Of a stretch of 47,907 nucleotides of DNA, positions 34,415-42,795 are shown one piece after another (the stretch's first letter is position 1; every line of letters begins with the position of its first letter). The stretch comes from Bacteroidota bacterium (GTDB taxonomy: Bacteria > Bacteroidota > Bacteroidia > Flavobacteriales_D > Sanyastnellaceae): positions 1 through 47,907 of the forward strand of contig JAQBTQ010000020.1 of the NCBI GenBank assembly GCA_027624855.1. The letters run 5' to 3'. Both the position numbers and the translations under genes were made by a program. A model generated the notes under the pieces. It was not told the origin of the DNA. It saw only the letters and a program-made list of their open reading frames with translations, and made no database searches.

Positions 34415-35479
34415 TTAGTCTTTTACGAATGGATACCCTTCCGTCTTGTACACATCTTCGTAGAGCTCGCTTGCATCTGGATATGGGCTTTCCTCTGCAA
34501 AAGCAATGGATTCCTCTACTTGTGCTTTCACCTCTTTCTCAACCGCCTTGAGCTCTTCTGCAGTATTCCAGCCTTGCTCAATGAGCACCTGTCGAACATA
34601 TTCGATTGGATCTTTCTCCTGGTATTCACTTAATTCCTCTTTCGTTCTGTACTTCTGAGGATCAGACATGGAGTGGCCTTTGTAACGGTAGGTTTGGATG
34701 TCAAGCAATGTTGGTCCATCGCCTTTCCGAGCGCGTTGCGCAGCCTCTTTGACAGCGTCATGAACTGCTTCAGGACTCATTCCGTCAACGGTTGCTGAAG
34801 GCATTTTGTAACTCGCTCCCAAAACCTCTAAATCTGTGACATTCGATGTGCGCTCCACCGAAGTACCCATGGCGTATTTGTTATTTTCAACGATGAAAAT
34901 CACTGGTAACTTCCATGTCATGGCCATGTTAAAGGTTTCATGGAGAATTCCCTGACGCGCCGCACCGTCCCCAAAGAAGCACAGCGTAACATGGTCTTCA
35001 TTCCGATACTTGTCTGCGAATGCAATGCCCGCTCCCAGTCCAATTTGTCCTCCTACAATTCCATGACCACCAAAAAGGTTGCGTTCTTTGTCAAACATGT
35101 GCATGGAACCTCCTTTTCCTTTGCTGGTTCCGGTCTTGCGACCATACAATTCTGCCATGACATATTTGGGGTCTGTGCCGAGAACGAGTGGATGGGCGTG
35201 ATCACGATAAGCCGTAATCATTCGGTCAGTTGGACGTACGGCTTCAGAAATTCCTGCAAGGATTGCTTCTTGTCCAATGTACAAATGGCAAAATCCACCA
35301 AATTTTTGCTGGATGTATAGCTGTCCGCAGCGTTCTTCGAACTTCCGCATCAAGTACATGTCGCGAAACCATCGCTGGTAAACTGCTTTCGCATGCGGCA
35401 TGGTTTTCGCCGCTGCAGGGGCCTTCTTCGCCAATTTTGCCTTGGCTTTAGGCCGAGTAGTAGGTGTGCTTGTCGACAT
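34415..35479 (-). CDS. pdhA: Pyruvate dehydrogenase E1 component, alpha subunit
   Basis: A thiamine-diphosphate-dependent decarboxylase subunit. The TPP motif spans FFGDGAARQGILHETFNMA to VENNKYAMGT. GGHGIVGGQIGLGAGIAFADKY precedes it, and RYKGHSMSDPQKYRTKEE holds the regulatory and phosphorylation-loop residues. The first 25 residues are an unusual Ala/Lys/Thr-rich basic tail (TRPKAKAKLAKKAPAAAK) that is not part of the fold. Length 354. A TATATTTG box (35508-35501) lies 21 bases before ATG 35479, so the pdhA-pdhC transcript starts here and has a short leader. Confidence 0.95.
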   Translation of the reverse strand: MSTSTPTTRPKAKAKLAKKAPAAAKTMPHAKAVYQRWFRDMYLMRKFEERCGQLYIQQKFGGFCHLYIGQEAILAGISEAVRPTDRMITAYRDHAHPLVLGTDPKYVMAELYGRKTGTSKGKGGSMHMFDKERNLFGGHGIVGGQIGLGAGIAFADKYRNEDHVTLCFFGDGAARQGILHETFNMAMTWKLPVIFIVENNKYAMGTSVERTSNVTDLEVLGASYKMPSATVDGMSPEAVHDAVKEAAQRARKGDGPTLLDIQTYRYKGHSMSDPQKYRTKEELSEYQEKDPIEYVRQVLIEQGWNTAEELKAVEKEVKAQVEESIAFAEESPYPDASELYEDVYKTEGYPFVKD

Positions 35480-35697: not shown

Positions 35698-36477
35698 TTG
35701 AATCTGCAAGACTCCCTACAAAGCCTATCGCCCATTCATCTTTCTGAAATGGAAGGCACAGAACTCATGAGTCGATTGGATCAAAAATTCTTGATTCAAT
35801 CCGATTGGATTCCGCTATTAATCAAATCTTGCAAAGACCATTACAAAATATTGGAAGTGGAAGGCGCACGTCAATCGGGTTATTCCAATCGATTCATCGA
35901 CACAAAACTGAACGATTCGTTGCACGCCCACACTAGGGGCAGAAAAATTCGATTTAAAGCGCGGATCAGACAATACGATTCGAATGGCAAATCTTTCTTA
36001 GAAATCAAAGAAAAAACGGTACAAGGAAAAACGATAAAATCCCGATTGGAACGTGGTAAAAAAGTGGATTTATTCGAAGAGCTATCCTGCGTGGAATGGG
36101 ACTTTTTGAATGAACATTATCGATACAATGAGCCCAAACTCTCGGATATTTCTTGCCACTTCAATCGCCTTACTCTCGTGTCCACCGAACGTCAAGAGCG
36201 CATTACAATTGATACCGACATTGTATTTAAGTCGAAAGAAAGGACAGAAGATCTCGGATCGTTGGCCATTGTAGAAGTCAAACAAGAAGCGATCGATCGA
36301 TTTTCACCCCTACTCGTTGCACTAAAAGCATTTCGATTTGAACATACTCCGCTTGGAAGAAGAACAAGTTTGTCCAAATATGTTCTCGGTATGTTACTTT
36401 TGAACGCTGACCTGCCTCCGAGATCGTATCGAATGGTGATGAAACGCATTCGACGGCTCAAAAACCTGATAAACTAA
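35698..36477 (+). CDS. VTC-domain protein (polyphosphate polymerase-like)
   Basis: 259 residues, matching the VTC (vacuolar transporter chaperone) domain of the triphosphate-tunnel fold. In yeast Vtc4 this domain makes polyphosphate from ATP. The tunnel's basic and acidic strands are visible: MSRLDQKFLI, GRKIRFKARIRQY, FLEIKEKTVQGKTIKSRLERG, ERITIDTDIVF, LAIVEVKQE, and the C-terminal GRRTSLSKYVLGM. The start is TTG 35698. The first ATG (35749) would cut off the segment ending SLSPIHLSEMEGTELMSRLD, which family members have. It lies 3 bases before the DUF4956 gene, a frequent partner. Polyphosphate synthesis is inference; the bacterial substrate has not been shown here. Confidence 0.82.
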   Translation: MNLQDSLQSLSPIHLSEMEGTELMSRLDQKFLIQSDWIPLLIKSCKDHYKILEVEGARQSGYSNRFIDTKLNDSLHAHTRGRKIRFKARIRQYDSNGKSFLEIKEKTVQGKTIKSRLERGKKVDLFEELSCVEWDFLNEHYRYNEPKLSDISCHFNRLTLVSTERQERITIDTDIVFKSKERTEDLGSLAIVEVKQEAIDRFSPLLVALKAFRFEHTPLGRRTSLSKYVLGMLLLNADLPPRSYRMVMKRIRRLKNLIN

Positions 36478-36480
36478 GAA

Positions 36481-37095
36481 ATGAACGAACCAACCATCCT
36501 CGAATTATTGACGTCCTTCGGAGGAAACCTCGTTTCGTGTTTGGTGCTCGTTTTAGGCATCTATCACCGAACCTCAAAGCGAAGGGACTACGTGTTTTCG
36601 TTCGTTTTGGTCTCAACCGCGGTGTTCTTGCTTTGTCACCTTTTGGTCGATGTAAAGATTGATATGGCATTTGCTCTTGGGCTATTCGCAATTTTTGGAA
36701 TCATACGCTACCGAACGGACGCCATTCCCATTCGGGAAATGACCTACTTGTTCATCTTGATTGCATTGTCTGTCCTGAATGCATTGGCTCAAGGTTCAGC
36801 AGGATGGGAAATCATCGCTGGTGCCAACGTTGCCGTTTGGAGCCTCACCTTTATCCTTGATCAGTTGTGGACCATCCGTCACATCGCAACCAAAGTCGTT
36901 ATTTATGACCGCGTGGATTTGCTCAGTGAAGGACGACGAGATGAACTCATCAAAGACTTAGAAAAGCGCACGGGCGTACAAATCACGCGCATCGAGATTG
37001 GTAAAGTCGACTTGTTGAGAGACACGGCAGTCATCAAAGTTCATTTTGATGGCGATGCCCAGCCTGGCCACTTCGAAGGCCAATCAAACCCTTAA
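36481..37095 (+). CDS. DUF4956 membrane protein, partner of the VTC protein
   Basis: 204 residues with about four membrane helices in the first 130 residues (LVSCLVLVLGIYH, YVFSFVLVSTAVFLLCHLLV, MAFALGLFAIFGIIRYRT, MTYLFILIALSVLNALA and the next). A soluble C-terminal domain follows (VDLLSEGRRDELIKDLEKRTG, VDLLRDTAVIKVHF). AIFGIIRYRTDAIPIREMTYLFI is the family hallmark. The gene begins 3 bases after the VTC stop, so they are one unit. A membrane platform or channel for the VTC product is plausible but unproven. It converges on ispF with 7 bases between stops and no terminator. Confidence 0.85.
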   Translation: MNEPTILELLTSFGGNLVSCLVLVLGIYHRTSKRRDYVFSFVLVSTAVFLLCHLLVDVKIDMAFALGLFAIFGIIRYRTDAIPIREMTYLFILIALSVLNALAQGSAGWEIIAGANVAVWSLTFILDQLWTIRHIATKVVIYDRVDLLSEGRRDELIKDLEKRTGVQITRIEIGKVDLLRDTAVIKVHFDGDAQPGHFEGQSNP

Positions 37096-37102
37096 TTTTC
37101 GC

Positions 37103-37585
37103 TCATCCCTCCTGCTCCAGGAGGACCACAGCATGGGCACTCACGCCCTCTTCTCGTCCAACGAAGCCCAATCGTTCAGTCGTTGTTGCTTTGATGCTGA
37201 TTTGGTGCATTTCGACCCCAAGCAAGCCTGCGATGCATTGGCGCATTGAATCGATGTGAGGACTGAGTTTAGGCTGTTGCAGACATACCGTACAATCGGC
37301 ATTTCCTAGCCTCCATCCTTTCGATGTGATCAAGTCGTAGGTGTGTTGCAATAGTTTTTTTGAATCGACCCCCTTGTATTTCGGATCGGTATCTGGAAAA
37401 TGATAGCCAATATCGCGAAGCGCTAAAGCGCCCAAAAAGGCATCACACAAAACGTGTAACAATACATCTGCATCGCTGTGACCTACCAGGCCATGGGTGT
37501 GTGGAATTTCAACACCTCCGAGCCAGAATGACTCATTTTCTGCTAATTGATGAACGTCGTAACCGTAACCAATGCGAAATGACAT
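37103..37585 (-). CDS. ispF: 2-C-methyl-D-erythritol 2,4-cyclodiphosphate synthase (IspF)
   Basis: IspF forms the cyclic diphosphate of the MEP isoprenoid pathway as a zinc homotrimer. From ATG 37585 it has 160 residues; a GTG at 37594 would add three. GYGYDVHQL carries the Asp and His zinc ligands. GGVEIPHTHGLVGHSDADVLLH gives the third ligand and active-site loop. DIGYHFPDTDPKYKG, then KATTTERLGFVGREEGVSAHAVV, complete the family pattern. It follows porV closely on the same strand (14 bases), so an isoprenoid enzyme rides on a secretion operon. Confidence 0.97.
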   Translation of the reverse strand: MSFRIGYGYDVHQLAENESFWLGGVEIPHTHGLVGHSDADVLLHVLCDAFLGALALRDIGYHFPDTDPKYKGVDSKKLLQHTYDLITSKGWRLGNADCTVCLQQPKLSPHIDSMRQCIAGLLGVEMHQISIKATTTERLGFVGREEGVSAHAVVLLEQEG

Positions 37586-37599
37586 GCGGCTCACAATAC

Positions 37600-38856
37600 T
37601 TATTCTTCCGACGAAGACTGGGCCAAGTCATCAAATTGCAAGCGCAAAGTGAAGCGCAACGTATTGGCTAGTGGATTTTGCTGGCGCGTTGAGATTAAAT
37701 AACTCAAATCCACCGTGAAAACCGTGTACTTGATTCCCGCTCCCAAAGTGATGAATTGACGAGCGCCTTTGGAATAATGCTCATTGAAGAAGCCCGTTCG
37801 AAAGGCGAATGCGTCATTGAATAAATACTCGACTCCACCACCGATGTTCAATTCGCGTAACTCCTCTCGGAATTGGCTCCCATCTTCAATGGTGTAAGTG
37901 CCATCATCATTGAAATTCACAATTCCCGGTGCATCATAAAAACTTTGAATCATCCCGGTGGCAACTCCCACATTGGGATCATAACCACTGATGATTTCAG
38001 AGCCGCTCTCTTGATCATAAATCGGCGTCGTTGGAACAAGGAGTTTGTTCAGGTCTGCCGTGAAAGTCAAGCTATTGTAATCGTCCATCTCGACCTTGAG
38101 GGCAGCACCGGTCTTCAAATTGGTGGGAATGAAATCCCTTTCAGCAGATTCACTGTAGCTCATTTTGGCTCCAATGTTTGAGATGTTGATGCCCCAATTA
38201 AATTCTGCATCCTTGCCTCGAAATTTGGCTCTTGGATTGGTATAAAAACCACTGATGTCGACGGCCACAGATCGCCCGGGCTTTGAATTCGCTCCCAAGA
38301 CATTGGTTCCACCTGTCAAGTTGGAATTGATGAAGCGGCCCGCAATGCCCCCGCTGAATCGATCACTCAACTTTTGGCTGTAGCCTAAATCCAAACTGAA
38401 TTCAGCAGGTTGAAAATCACGAATCGTTGTTCCTGTTTCATCAGTAAACGTGATATTTCCCAAGCTAAAATAGCGAAGTGCCCCACCCCATGCTTGACGC
38501 TTGTTGATGCGTCGAATACCTGACAAATAAGCCAAATTCATGTCGTCAACCAGGGCGCGCAACCAGGGCGCGTAAGCCAAGCTGAACTCAACTTCATTGG
38601 TCATGAAAGCCATTTTAGCTGGATTCCAATGCAAGCTGTTCCCATCAGGAGAAAGCGCTACACCAGCGTCGCCCAGTGCACCAGATCGTGAATCTGGACC
38701 AATCATCAAGAAAGGGACAGCCGTGGTGATGGTATTCAACTGAATCTGTTGTGAAACCTCGCCAGGTGTCAACTGTGCTTGCGCAGGAATGCCAAAACCC
38801 ACCAAAGCTGCCAGAGCTATGAGTCGATTCGCATGATTCTTGAACATATGCTTCAT
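37600..38856 (-). CDS. porV: T9SS outer-membrane shuttle protein PorV (LptO)
   Basis: PorV is a FadL-like outer-membrane barrel that carries T9SS cargo from the translocon to the sortase PorU. From ATG 38856 it has 418 residues, with a signal peptide ending GFGIPAQAQ. The mature start, QLNTITTAVPFLMIGPDSRSGALGDAGVALSPDGNSLHWNPAKMAF, is the strongly conserved PorV/PorQ N-terminal block. Strands alternate to the end (FTLRLQFDD). The 10 codons before 38856 are not needed. A perfect TACTTTTG box (38891-38884) 28 bases upstream, overlapping the porU 3' end region, suggests its own promoter besides readthrough from porU. Confidence 0.95.
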   Translation of the reverse strand: MKHMFKNHANRLIALAALVGFGIPAQAQLTPGEVSQQIQLNTITTAVPFLMIGPDSRSGALGDAGVALSPDGNSLHWNPAKMAFMTNEVEFSLAYAPWLRALVDDMNLAYLSGIRRINKRQAWGGALRYFSLGNITFTDETGTTIRDFQPAEFSLDLGYSQKLSDRFSGGIAGRFINSNLTGGTNVLGANSKPGRSVAVDISGFYTNPRAKFRGKDAEFNWGINISNIGAKMSYSESAERDFIPTNLKTGAALKVEMDDYNSLTFTADLNKLLVPTTPIYDQESGSEIISGYDPNVGVATGMIQSFYDAPGIVNFNDDGTYTIEDGSQFREELRELNIGGGVEYLFNDAFAFRTGFFNEHYSKGARQFITLGAGIKYTVFTVDLSYLISTRQQNPLANTLRFTLRLQFDDLAQSSSEE

Positions 38857-38883
38857 TTCGTTGTGTGTCGCGCTAATTAAACG

Positions 38884-38891
38884 CAAAAGTA
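38884..38891 (-). promoter_or_regulatory. -7 box upstream of porV
   Basis: TACTTTTG on the minus strand fits TAnnTTTG exactly and lies in the gap just after the porU stop (38902), giving porV a leader of about 20 bases. Confidence 0.5.
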
Positions 38892-38901
38892 CATCATTTG
38901 G

Positions 38902-41900
38902 TTACGGACGAAGAACGACCAATTGATCAGAATATTGCACCGGAGTACCCAAATCTGGAATCAATGTCATTCGGAAGAGGTAGACTCCTGCACTTACCTG
39001 TTCGCTACCTCCATTGGACGACGGATCCCAGGCCATTGATTGCGAACGAAACCCATCTTCATGCCATTGAGATTCCTGTCGATGAACCAAGGCGCCACGA
39101 CTTGAGAATATTTCCAGAATCATCCGCCCTTCTTGACAAGCCTGATTGTGCTCTATTGAAAACTGGAAACCCTCGGCCGATGGATTGGGGTAGGCAATCA
39201 CTTGACCAAAAGCAGCCTCAAGACTTGATGCAACAATGAAATCTACTGATGCTGATCCCTTGTTGTTTTGCACATCCCATACAACCAAGTCCAATTGATG
39301 TCTCCCCTCTTCAAGATTCTCGAAAGGATAACGCACTGTTCCACTTTGATAGGTATTCAAATCCGTTGTGTAAAACGCATTCAAAACAATGCTTTCGTCA
39401 GATTGATTATCCAAGGTGGCTTTGATGTCATGGCCAATTCCTACTCCTGAAGCGTTGATTCCTCCTTCATCAAACACGCGGGCCAAAAGCCAAGGATTTT
39501 CATCCGTCAAACCACCGGATTGAAACGTGGTGTCATTCAGGAACAATCGCACATATGGAGGCGTATCATCAATCTCGAAACCTTCTGCAACTCCCCCAAT
39601 GACCAACGACTGAGTCGACCCGTGAGCGTCCGTTGAATCCGAAACCGCATATGCGCTGATTCGTCCCGCCCCAAAACTGTAATCAATGTCACGCGGTACA
39701 ATGAATTCAAATTCAAATTCCCCTTCAACTACGCTTGCAACCCCCCGAAACAAGACATTACGAAAGACTTCAAAAGTGTGTGGATTGGGCGCATCGTCGT
39801 TATTCAATGTTGTGATTTGCGACCGCTTGTCAAAAACCTGGGCGTGCACAATGCCATTGAAGTCTTGGATGATGTTTCCGAAATCATCGGTCACAATCCC
39901 TTTGATTGTTGCTGTTTCCAGTGCATTCAGGGTGTCGGGAACTTCGGTGAAGACCACCTGATTTTCAGGATAATTCAACCGCAATGCCACATCACCAAGC
40001 AAAGAGAAATTCCGCTTGTTGCTGCTATTTGATACCTGAGGATCATTCTTGGTGACCCGCGCGATGTCACCTAGACGCAACGGCACGGCGCCTGTGTCTT
40101 GCAAGGCGATGTCATAAAAAGCACGATTCAATTGTTGATTTGAGCCACTGAAAACAACTCGGGTAGTCGTGAGCATAGCGATGGCACCCCCTTTCGGATT
40201 GAGTACCATCATTTCGCCTGCCGAGTCGACATCTGGATCATCAAATCGCGCTAACTCACAAGTTGCCGTCATAAAGAGCGGCATTCGTTCCAGATTATCC
40301 CATTCTTGAATCGTCGTTGTGTTGAGAATGCGTTCATGCGACCATCCGCGCTCGCCTCCATGACCGATGTAATTGACAATCAACGCCCCGTCTTGCACTT
40401 GGCGATCAATTTCTGCTTGGGCTTCTGGATAACGCTCACCTCCTGGCGTGCTTTCTTGCGGGTAGGCATCCAAATAAATCTTGGTCACGTCATACGCTGG
40501 ATGATTTTCCGCAAGCGTTTGTGCATGCTCATCTGAATTGACCATGTGTTCAATCTCCGTTGGCCCTCCATTTCCATCCATGTCATCCGAAACAAAGCAA
40601 ATTCGATTTCTCCATGTTCCGTTATCTCCATTCGATTCATCAAGGCAACCCGATGGCAATGGTGAGGACGATGGGTGTTGCAAATAAGCTTCAATCTTAT
40701 CAACCGCAGCGTTCGCCTCAGTCAAAGAGGAACAGGGAATGCGCCCAACTCCAATGGCCAATTTATCGCCGATGCCTTCGCCATATTGATCCTCAAGGAA
40801 TCCGAAGTAGTCATCACTGACATAGCTTCCAGTTGGGCTGACCGAATTCTCACTTTGATAGGTGATGACGTAGGGAGAGGCCTCTAAATTCAGTCGATTC
40901 GCAAATGTGCCGTCACCAAAAAGTTGCAAATATTTCGGGGGCGCCCCTCCGGAATCGATGGCGCGATCCCACAGCATCATCATCAGCATTTTAATTGCAG
41001 TCGGATCTACGCTTCCGCTCGAAAACTCATCGAACACTGCGCGTTGGGTAGTCAATAACACCTGCAATCCTTCGTCGGCGTGAATTGCTGCCAACCGCTG
41101 AGCAGCTTCCATGTATGCGGGTCGGGTGATGATCACCAAATCCGCTTGCACGACTCCATGGAGATTGCTCGGTTCGACTAGGGCATGAAAAGTAGGCGAT
41201 GGAAAGGTTTGGGGGGTGAACACTATGAATCGGCGCGTGGTGTCGGCAAACGATTTCCAGTTGATTCCCACATCCGAGCTTTCAAGCTCCATTTGAATCG
41301 GTTGAGAAGGCAATGTGACATCCCACACCTCCACGCTTGCATCGTTACTTGTAACATGGTATTCCGAGACGAAACCTTGATTCGAAACGGACTGAAAATC
41401 CAACCAACCCTCGGACATTTTCAGGAAACACTCCTGCTCCATGAGCAAGTAATCCAACCATCCAATGGCTCCTTCTGCGGCCGGCGTGAATGAAACATTT
41501 ACTTGAATCATGGCGTCCTCTGCTTCAATCCCCTCAGCCGTTGCAGCACTTCCAGTTGAAGATCCAGAAGCGAGGTTGGCTACGTTGCTCGTAGAAGTTG
41601 AGCTTGTTGATGAAGGTGACGTTTCAAAATTGATGGCCCCTGCGTTTAAAGTGAAGGTGCTGGCCGAGCCCATAGATTGCGCAGCAACGCGCATCTTCAG
41701 TTTTGCTGTTGATTCCGTAGCAAATGGGGTGCTAAAATTGAAAGAACGTGACGTGATGGCACCAAAGGACTCGCCAAACCATTCCCTTCCGGAACGGTTG
41801 GGACTTTGCAGTTCTTGTTCGTGAAATTGCACGTTGGTATATCGGTCAATGAGGGTGTCCATTGGCTCTGCAAGCATTGGTTGAGTTTGCAGACGACCGA

Positions 41901-42795
41901 GCGATTCCTCGCGGTCGATGGCTAGAAAATACCAACCCTGATTCTCGTAAGCATGACGTTGATGGGTCCATTCGTTGCTGCCGGGATTCCATTGTATCTC
42001 GTCTGCCCCGAGACCCCAAAACAAAAAGGTCTCACCTTCCTCCCACGCATCATCTGAATCTCCTTGAAACTTCATTGCCACGGTTTGCAAACCAAGTGGT
42101 CTACTGGTCGCGTTGGCCATAGGGAGCATGCGCCCTCCATTTCCATACAATTGCAGTCGATTTGGATTCAAAGTGTCTGGATCAAACCCTGCCTGCACCA
42201 TCCAATCTCGATCGATTCGGTAGAGACCGTCCTGTGGAATGGACAAGCGTATGATTTGACCCTCTGCCAATTTGGATACCTCAGGCCAATTACGGGTGCG
42301 ATTGTTTATTTCATCGGTCGCAATGACGTTTTCAGTGATTTCCAAATTACCGAACACACCCGCCAGATTGACGAGTCGCTCAAATTGGCCATCACTGTCA
42401 TTCCAACGAATCAGTGGACCCATCCATTGGGCTAAGCCACGATTGCTCATCACGTTCCATCCCGTTCTGATCCGCTGATTTTGCGCTAATTCTATTTGTC
42501 GGTTGGTCAGGGACTCGGCTTCCATAAAAACCCACTGCTCACTTGAGACCAACTCAACAGCAGCATGCCAATCGACTGGAAATTCTATTTCATAAACTGC
42601 CCAAGGCAGTTCATCTGGCCAATAGCCGTCACCCACGGACCACTGTCCCACAGGCGCGAGGCTTGCATCTTGAATCCAACTGACCTCAAATTCCCTTTGT
42701 ACAACCGACCCCGACGCCGATTGAGCGAAGCAGGCGAAACTCCCCTGCAACACCAGCAAAATCAATGGAACAAGTCGAAACAAATGGGGATTCAT
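38902..42795 (-). CDS. porU: T9SS sortase PorU (gingipain-like C25 peptidase)
   Basis: PorU removes T9SS sorting domains and attaches cargo at the cell surface. 1297 residues with a signal peptide (LVPLILLVLQGSFACFAQ). The peptidase C25 domain runs about 550-910. The catalytic histidine is H812 in VNYIGHGGERGWSHE and the catalytic cysteine C846 in FMTATCELARFDD, with the substrate-pocket block YFGFLEDQYG near 663. A Ser/Thr/Ala-rich low-complexity stretch lies at about 392-420 in the N-terminal region. The C-terminus has YPNPSAEGFQFSIEHNQ and AGVYLFRM, a type A sorting-like domain. It is followed by porV and ispF on the same strand, and faces the porP-like gene and gldJ. Confidence 0.95.
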   Translation of the reverse strand: MNPHLFRLVPLILLVLQGSFACFAQSASGSVVQREFEVSWIQDASLAPVGQWSVGDGYWPDELPWAVYEIEFPVDWHAAVELVSSEQWVFMEAESLTNRQIELAQNQRIRTGWNVMSNRGLAQWMGPLIRWNDSDGQFERLVNLAGVFGNLEITENVIATDEINNRTRNWPEVSKLAEGQIIRLSIPQDGLYRIDRDWMVQAGFDPDTLNPNRLQLYGNGGRMLPMANATSRPLGLQTVAMKFQGDSDDAWEEGETFLFWGLGADEIQWNPGSNEWTHQRHAYENQGWYFLAIDREESLGRLQTQPMLAEPMDTLIDRYTNVQFHEQELQSPNRSGREWFGESFGAITSRSFNFSTPFATESTAKLKMRVAAQSMGSASTFTLNAGAINFETSPSSTSSTSTSNVANLASGSSTGSAATAEGIEAEDAMIQVNVSFTPAAEGAIGWLDYLLMEQECFLKMSEGWLDFQSVSNQGFVSEYHVTSNDASVEVWDVTLPSQPIQMELESSDVGINWKSFADTTRRFIVFTPQTFPSPTFHALVEPSNLHGVVQADLVIITRPAYMEAAQRLAAIHADEGLQVLLTTQRAVFDEFSSGSVDPTAIKMLMMMLWDRAIDSGGAPPKYLQLFGDGTFANRLNLEASPYVITYQSENSVSPTGSYVSDDYFGFLEDQYGEGIGDKLAIGVGRIPCSSLTEANAAVDKIEAYLQHPSSSPLPSGCLDESNGDNGTWRNRICFVSDDMDGNGGPTEIEHMVNSDEHAQTLAENHPAYDVTKIYLDAYPQESTPGGERYPEAQAEIDRQVQDGALIVNYIGHGGERGWSHERILNTTTIQEWDNLERMPLFMTATCELARFDDPDVDSAGEMMVLNPKGGAIAMLTTTRVVFSGSNQQLNRAFYDIALQDTGAVPLRLGDIARVTKNDPQVSNSSNKRNFSLLGDVALRLNYPENQVVFTEVPDTLNALETATIKGIVTDDFGNIIQDFNGIVHAQVFDKRSQITTLNNDDAPNPHTFEVFRNVLFRGVASVVEGEFEFEFIVPRDIDYSFGAGRISAYAVSDSTDAHGSTQSLVIGGVAEGFEIDDTPPYVRLFLNDTTFQSGGLTDENPWLLARVFDEGGINASGVGIGHDIKATLDNQSDESIVLNAFYTTDLNTYQSGTVRYPFENLEEGRHQLDLVVWDVQNNKGSASVDFIVASSLEAAFGQVIAYPNPSAEGFQFSIEHNQACQEGRMILEIFSSRGALVHRQESQWHEDGFRSQSMAWDPSSNGGSEQVSAGVYLFRMTLIPDLGTPVQYSDQLVVLRP

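Follow-up and report, generated by a model that had tools for sequence, protein, structure and literature searches.

A VTC-domain protein and its DUF4956 membrane partner in Bacteroidota: a candidate phosphopolymer synthase coupled to the cell envelope

Among the described systems closest to the gene pair analyzed here, the eukaryotic VTC complex (Vtc4 with Vtc1/Vtc3) shares with it the tunnel fold, the catalytic residues and the combination of a cytosolic enzyme with a membrane part (PMC9911596). Unlike its eukaryotic counterpart, the bacterial enzyme, 259 amino acids long, shows neither an SPX domain nor a fused membrane domain by Pfam, the membrane part being the product of a separate gene; that partner, for which the model gives five helices followed by a C-terminal domain, appears to belong to an MgtC-like family.

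A second related system is found in the accessory genes of Gram-positive Pel clusters, such as SIR_1592-1594 of S. intermedius, in which the same CotH, polymerase and DUF4956 families are represented (PMC7112168). SIR_1593 is described as a polyphosphate polymerase domain protein and SIR_1594 as CotH (PMC12345266); combining the two reports, we infer that SIR_1592 is the DUF4956 gene. The CotH-polymerase-DUF4956 trio of streptococcal and other Gram-positive Pel clusters is, in other words, already known (PMC7112168, PMC12345266), so that the original statement that product and role are not established, which stands for the literature matches listed, was incomplete in passing over a gene group that is in print. 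According to PMC12345266, mutants in SIR_1591-1594 all still aggregate and all make Pel, with more Pel and less aggregation in the SIR_1592 mutant and no change reported for the SIR_1593 mutant. The same paper states that the three-gene arrangement was not found outside Pel; we observe the trio side by side, possibly outside Pel, in several Bacteroidota and in one Anaerolineae stretch. The locus described here further differs from the Pel clusters in that it is flanked by pdh, ispF and por genes and has no CotH gene beside the pair, and the Bacteroidota clusters in that they often carry an HlyD-type adaptor or a DUF2490 gene.

Two protein families complete the comparison. The MgtC/SapB proteins align in both their membrane and C-terminal domains with a set of mostly HlyD-linked DUF4956 proteins, but the genomic partner here is VTC and the DUF4956 type seen in our locus lacks a direct match to four MgtC proteins. 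PPK1 has the same presumed product but belongs to another family. Among the literature matches listed, none tests a bacterial VTC protein biochemically, nor does any report an HlyD-type adaptor with VTC-DUF4956 or a genome-wide link to CotH; the adaptor upstream of VTC and the CotH co-occurrence are what the present analysis adds. VTC-DUF4956 is ordinary as a gene pair and unusual in the implications of its context. As separate observations from the literature, the DUF4956/DUF2490 genes BT3498-BT3499 are listed in an iron stimulon, and in ethanol-adapted Clostridium thermocellum a VTC domain gene has weak signs of convergent mutation (PMC10434189, PMC10503014).

The gene pair and its Vtc4-type enzyme

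The window, by which we mean the whole stretch of 47,907 nt that was analyzed (contig JAQBTQ010000020.1 of assembly GCA_027624855.1, from a marine Bacteroidota bacterium of the Sanyastnellaceae), contains the two open reading frames at 35698-37095 exactly as the original prediction had placed them. They lie on the same strand and in the same frame (Table 1), and the stop codon of VTC is separated from the start codon of DUF4956 by 3 bases (GAA). The claimed location between pdh and por loci is likewise correct: the pair is flanked by pdhA plus an E2 gene on the pdh side and by ispF, porV and porU on the other. HlyD, DUF2490 and CotH genes are absent from the window locus itself, and no adjacent pel gene was found among the tested flanking genes (pdh E1/E2, ispF, porV and porU). 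The TTG start assigned to VTC is supported by the relatives inspected, eight in number, all of which have GTG (6) or TTG (2) at the aligned position.

Table 1. Features of the window at and around the VTC-DUF4956 pair
Feature	Position	Strand	Evidence and remarks
Predicted polyphosphate polymerase with VTC domain (triphosphate tunnel), 259 aa, starting at TTG	35698..36477	+	PF09359 E=3.5e-16
VTC basic C-terminal tail	36403..36474	+	last 24 residues: 7 K/R, 1 D/E; helix 245-258 in model
DUF4956 protein, 204 aa, ATG start	36481..37095	+	PF16316 170 bits, E=5.5e-50
pdhA (E1 alpha of pyruvate dehydrogenase), divergent neighbour	34415..35479	-	TIGR03182 E=2.7e-141; context only
ispF, convergent neighbour	37103..37594	-	TIGR00151 E=2.1e-66; context only
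porV (type IX secretion)	37600..38886	-	NF033710 E=2.7e-136; context only
porU (type IX secretion sortase)	38902..42795	-	NF033707 1118 bits; context only

The eight relatives were drawn from 39 loci matched by the window DUF4956 protein, which come mostly from Flavobacteriales MAGs and several of which end at contig ends. In all 39, DUF4956 is immediately preceded by a VTC match; a count based on open reading frames gives only 38, because the VTC gene of one locus (L117) is interrupted by a contig end. The spacing of the two genes, from -4 to +17 bases in most loci and larger in L107, L122, L123 and L124, fits the expectation for coupled translation. The synteny of the window is widely kept in this collection, with ispF within 3 kb in 33 loci, pdhA in 32 and porV in 30. 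In a set of 100 order-level relatives, the genome of the window included, VTC is encoded in 90 genomes and DUF4956 in 94, and the two share contig and strand in every one of the 90; only two of 98 VTC places have no DUF4956 on the same contig and strand, both being fragments at contig ends, and at four places the order is reversed, with DUF4956 first. Across a phylum sample of 296 Bacteroidota genomes, VTC is present in 48 and DUF4956 in 74, among them all 48 genomes with VTC, while 26 of the 74 have DUF4956 without VTC. DUF4956 is thus a near-obligate partner for VTC, and the view that the two genes form one unit is upheld by the 39 loci and the 90 genomes alike. A search of a plasmid collection returned 2 records.

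In the enzyme, Pfam gives a single significant match, the VTC domain (PF09359, 59.9 bits against a cut-off of 23). A single-sequence phmmer search with the window protein retrieved nothing from the PDB sequences; a profile built from 27 homologues retrieved yeast Vtc4 (3g3q, E=2.9e-12), and only Vtc proteins score below E=1e-5 in that search. The alignment of the bacterial proteins has 18 invariant columns; Vtc4 carries the identical residue at 15 of them and differs by a T/S exchange at another. The identical positions (window residue first, Vtc4 second) are R26=R196, K30=K200, R89=R264, R91=R266, Y93=Y268, E102=E279, K104=K281, K114=K294, R157=R361, R168=R373, D172=D377, E193=E426, K195=K428, S226=S457 and K227=K458. 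The basic and acidic residues of the tunnel, which the original prediction had proposed to inspect against Vtc4, are accordingly present, including R89, R91 and E193, whose Vtc4 equivalents R264, R266 and E426, when replaced jointly, impair catalysis by the yeast complex (PMC9911596). K87 and K106 are invariant among the bacterial proteins and differ in Vtc4 (A262 and H283). An AlphaFold2 model of the window protein (pLDDT 89), submitted to Foldseek, returned Vtc chains at ranks 1-13, headed by the polyphosphate-bound structure 3g3q (E=2.2e-11, TM 0.58, rmsd 7.1), with the other tunnel enzymes ygiF, AtTTM3 and thiamine triphosphatase following. The cytosolic triphosphate-tunnel protein originally proposed can therefore be specified, by profile and by fold, as one of the Vtc4 type. 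Since the Vtc4 residues are kept and the modeled fold matches, this half of the pair is a credible polyphosphate polymerase, as judged from sequence and model.

The basic C-terminal tail of the protein may possibly serve in docking on the membrane or on the partner; it is absent from the DUF4956-first loci L046, L050, L059 and L080. A PPK1 gene is present elsewhere in the same genome, and VTC-bearing genomes in general tend to have one: 46 of 48 in the phylum sample and 70 of 90 in the relatives set. The idea that VTC substitutes for a missing PPK1 was rejected in view of PPK1 in the genome of the window and in the 46 phylum genomes.

The membrane partner and its predicted relation to MgtC

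Although the original prediction of a membrane partner stands, its count of four helices does not: the structure model (pLDDT 76.5) and the charge pattern give five, at residues 6-32, 36-55, 62-79, 84-106 and 109-131, followed by a C-terminal domain that has a beta-alpha-beta-beta arrangement in the model. The distribution of charges in the loops predicts that the N-terminus is outside and the C-terminal domain cytosolic, in agreement with the signal-peptide-like starts, judged by eye, of four longer homologues (L002, L011, L037 and L055). Two arginines, R76 and R78, are invariant in 31 aligned sequences and would sit where helix 3 meets the cytosol; they are reminiscent, by analogy only, of basic channel residues described for the VTC complex (PMC9911596).

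A relationship to MgtC is suggested at the level of profiles. The Pfam MgtC model PF02308 matches 8 of the 31 alignment members at E<=1 (best E=0.0015), and in whole genomes the MgtC HMM picks the DUF4956 protein in G083 (E=7.4e-4) and in G175, G159, G118 and G105 (4.0e-5 to 9.2e-4), in these five genomes always below the cut-off; in the genome of the window the MgtC model has no match. When 18 DUF4956 proteins (15 HlyD-linked and 3 from DUF4956-first loci, the window type not among them) were compared with 16 MgtC proteins using hhalign, the match reached 97.6%, with E=4.1e-12 for this one comparison, over 196 columns that include the C-terminal domain. An MlaE control gave 0.2%, a weak control in that its three sequences are about 90% alike. 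The window-type DUF4956 joins the set of 18 at 83% (E=8.9e-6) and has no significant direct match to four MgtC sequences. On these profile comparisons, the DUF4956 family is predicted to be a branch of the MgtC superfamily, to which the window type is connected only via the related DUF4956 branch. For the streptococcal SIR_1592, a 2025 paper had already described a membrane domain of the MgtC type joined to an ACT domain (PMC12345266); for the C-terminal domain studied here, which may be ACT-like, the Foldseek and VIA matches are weak.

At the level of structure, the DUF4956 model has no PDB fold match at E<=0.001, and hence no match to a channel. A second structure search gave as its best hit residues 361-492 of AcrB (Z 7.0, 104 aligned, rmsd 3.7), a fold rated as common, and there is no MgtC chain among the fold matches listed. 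True MgtC proteins, used as a control, are not enriched with VTC, being found in 7 of 22 genomes with VTC and 43 of 96 without (118 genomes, with membership inferred; 7/23 and 43/95 if G213 is included). G118 and G159 were counted as MgtC-negative in this control because their sole MgtC matches are DUF4956 proteins.

Envelope partners and the CotH association

In five loci (L067-L071), VTC is preceded by a protein of about 350 amino acids, and all five of these proteins are matched by NCBIfam models of HlyD/RND adaptors, with scores short of the curated cut-offs (best 1.6e-8). In a PDB profile search, the first HlyD-like branch reached E=0.1 at best, and Pfam gave nothing usable. A profile built from the five proteins has a match immediately before VTC in 21 of 30 phylum loci, with DUF4956 downstream in all 30, these loci being the best VTC scores and no random draw. 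The labels CotH, DUF2490 and HlyD at individual loci derive from small custom profiles, with Pfam and NCBIfam checks covering part of the proteins. A DUF2490 outer-membrane protein is encoded near DUF4956 in several loci (Pfam E=1e-24 in L066, custom profile elsewhere), and in one locus without VTC beside it (L222, 7515-10301) DUF4956, a porin O/P (PF07396, E=2.5e-7) and a CotH-profile match stand in a row.

Similar neighbours occur in part of nine further loci of the phylum sample that have DUF4956 only (L214-L221 and L223). Pfam or NCBIfam models identify the neighbour as HlyD-type in L214, L216 and L220, the custom profile matches it in L221, the neighbour in L215 looks alike, and L217, L218, L219 and L223 contain none of the tested partners. 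In L214, L215 and L216, DUF4956 is flanked by a membrane protein of 182 aa and by a protein of about 330 amino acids, the latter being the HlyD-type neighbour of L214 and L216. In four loci of a single family (f13), a VTC-less DUF4956 follows an MlaE-type permease and/or an ABC ATPase (L062 9170-11453, L063 217-1644, L064 8651-10867 and L065 7813-10004; Pfam check for L062 only).

CotH kinase-like proteins are encoded in 107 of the 296 phylum genomes, comprising 47 of the 48 with VTC and 60 of the 248 without (Fisher test, 1.8e-23); counted by genus, the figures are 36 of 37 and 43 of 103 (2.8e-10), in statistics that ignore phylogeny. Viewed from the membrane partner, CotH is present in 67 of 74 DUF4956 genomes, 20 of the 26 that have DUF4956 without VTC and 40 of the 222 that have neither; given the 20 VTC-less genomes, the link may be to DUF4956 and not to VTC. 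Every one of the 90 VTC genomes among the relatives encodes CotH, eight VTC-less relatives keep it, and in the remaining two (G066 and G084) CotH, VTC and DUF4956 are all absent. Fourteen control genomes include two with all three families (Corynebacterium glutamicum and Methanosarcina acetivorans), one with VTC and DUF4956 but no CotH (Bacteroides ihuae) and one with CotH alone (Bacillus subtilis).

CotH lies within 5 kb of VTC in at least 13 of the 48 phylum-sample genomes that encode VTC, to be read against a crude chance estimate in which 4 Mb are taken to contain four CotH genes. The CotH, VTC and DUF4956 genes are adjacent in L072, L124, L201, L203 and L206, with orders that include CotH-HlyD-VTC-DUF4956 (L206), CotH-VTC-DUF4956-DUF2490 (L201 and L203) and VTC-DUF4956-CotH (the Anaerolineae record L124). 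CotH is also present at the locus that is syntenic with that of the window in two members of a single genus (g30), where the gene order reads pdhA, CotH, a 128-aa protein, VTC, a split DUF4956, ispF and porV in L125, and CotH, the 128-aa protein, VTC, DUF4956, DUF2490 and an ispF-like gene (identified by its start) in L208. Given this, the window locus may represent a short version of the CotH cluster. The 128-aa protein between CotH and VTC (L208 4672-5058 and L125 4148-4534) has, by eye, a lipoprotein-like start, and the DUF4956 of L125 (5285-6053) occupies two overlapping frames, the result of a frameshift or an assembly error. In the genome of the window itself, CotH is found at seven places, in six frames. 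Tails of the kind used in type IX secretion score above cut-off in L194 and barely in L198 (TIGR04183) and in L197 (PF13585) and below it in L195 and L199, and Pfam finds no such tail in L196.

Proposed role of the pair

The reading that we tentatively favour, and regard as a nearly balanced proposition, takes the pair for a phosphopolymer synthase coupled to the membrane, in which cytosolic synthesis of polyphosphate is coupled to export into the envelope. VTC, judging from its kept Vtc4 residues and its fold, would transfer the gamma-phosphate of a nucleotide to a polyphosphate chain growing within the tunnel. DUF4956, as an MgtC-like protein with a cytosolic ACT-like domain, would dock VTC at the inner membrane and either hand the chain to the periplasm or gate the enzyme. 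As gene order suggests, the HlyD-type adaptor in many Bacteroidota, and elsewhere a barrel (DUF2490 and, once, a porin O/P), would move the product across the envelope; outside the cell, co-occurrence and adjacency suggest that the polymer might serve processes that involve secreted CotH kinase-like proteins. The HlyD-type adaptor, the outer-membrane barrels and the CotH context point away from storage and towards the cell envelope. The original hypothesis of a membrane-coupled polyphosphate system keeps its Vtc4-type enzyme, its membrane partner and the unity of the two, while its product and contact, as well as export, are parts that we infer. Counting against an export synthase are the DUF4956 genes without VTC, the tracking of DUF4956 by CotH, the eight VTC-less relatives that keep CotH, the control genomes of Bacteroides ihuae and Bacillus subtilis, the Streptococcus intermedius mutants that all still aggregate and make Pel, the presence of PPK1 and the bare locus of the window.

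A bolder version of the export reading, unlikely as it stands, would make VTC and the MgtC-like DUF4956 a polyphosphate secretion machine, in which polymerization itself drives the chain through DUF4956, an adaptor or barrel carries it onward, and the exported chain acts at the cell surface, where ATP is scarce, as phosphoryl donor or substrate for CotH.

Several alternatives have to be weighed against the favoured reading. The pair could be a cytosolic polyphosphate synthase whose product stays inside, with DUF4956 as an MgtC-type anchor that senses a ligand via its ACT-like domain. The MgtC-like family, the predicted cytosolic position of the C-terminal domain and the lack of a channel fold match at E<=0.001 are all compatible with such an arrangement; the HlyD-type adaptors and barrels of the same clusters and the CotH co-occurrence, however, would be odd for storage, and PPK1 is already present in nearly all VTC genomes of the phylum sample (46/48), which leaves this alternative somewhat unlikely. 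It is improbable, although the tunnel enzymes ygiF, AtTTM3 and thiamine triphosphatase do follow Vtc in the fold search, that VTC is some other enzyme of this kind, such as a tripolyphosphatase, a nucleotide triphosphatase or an enzyme of phosphoryl transfer to a polysaccharide or lipid whose substrate DUF4956 handles. The invariant K87 and K106, which deviate from Vtc4, and the presence of the family in Pel polysaccharide clusters (PMC7112168) would suit this alternative; yet the PDB profile matches better than E=1e-5 are Vtc only, and Vtc4 retains nearly all of the invariant residues (15/18, with one more T/S). Finally, the notion that DUF4956 is a general membrane module, associating with adaptors, Mla-type ABC genes or VTC in envelope lipid or ion homeostasis that VTC merely tunes, has in its favour the MlaE/ABC neighbours in f13, the 26 of 74 genomes with DUF4956 only, 20 of them with CotH, and the changes reported for SIR_1592 and not for SIR_1593 (PMC12345266), but is very doubtful in view of a partner that is near-obligate for VTC (48/48).

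If the favoured reading, synthesis coupled to export, is true, bacteria own a dedicated synthesize-and-export route for polyphosphate, one that would parallel the yeast VTC complex in logic while relying on a membrane protein of the MgtC type together with envelope adaptors. The relatives of MgtC would gain a concrete partner enzyme, and it would be explained why secreted CotH kinase-like proteins travel with the VTC-DUF4956 pair. VTC-DUF4956 pairs may send phosphate polymers out of the cell, and laboratory strains would, in that case, allow a test of where the phosphate for extracellular phosphorylation comes from.
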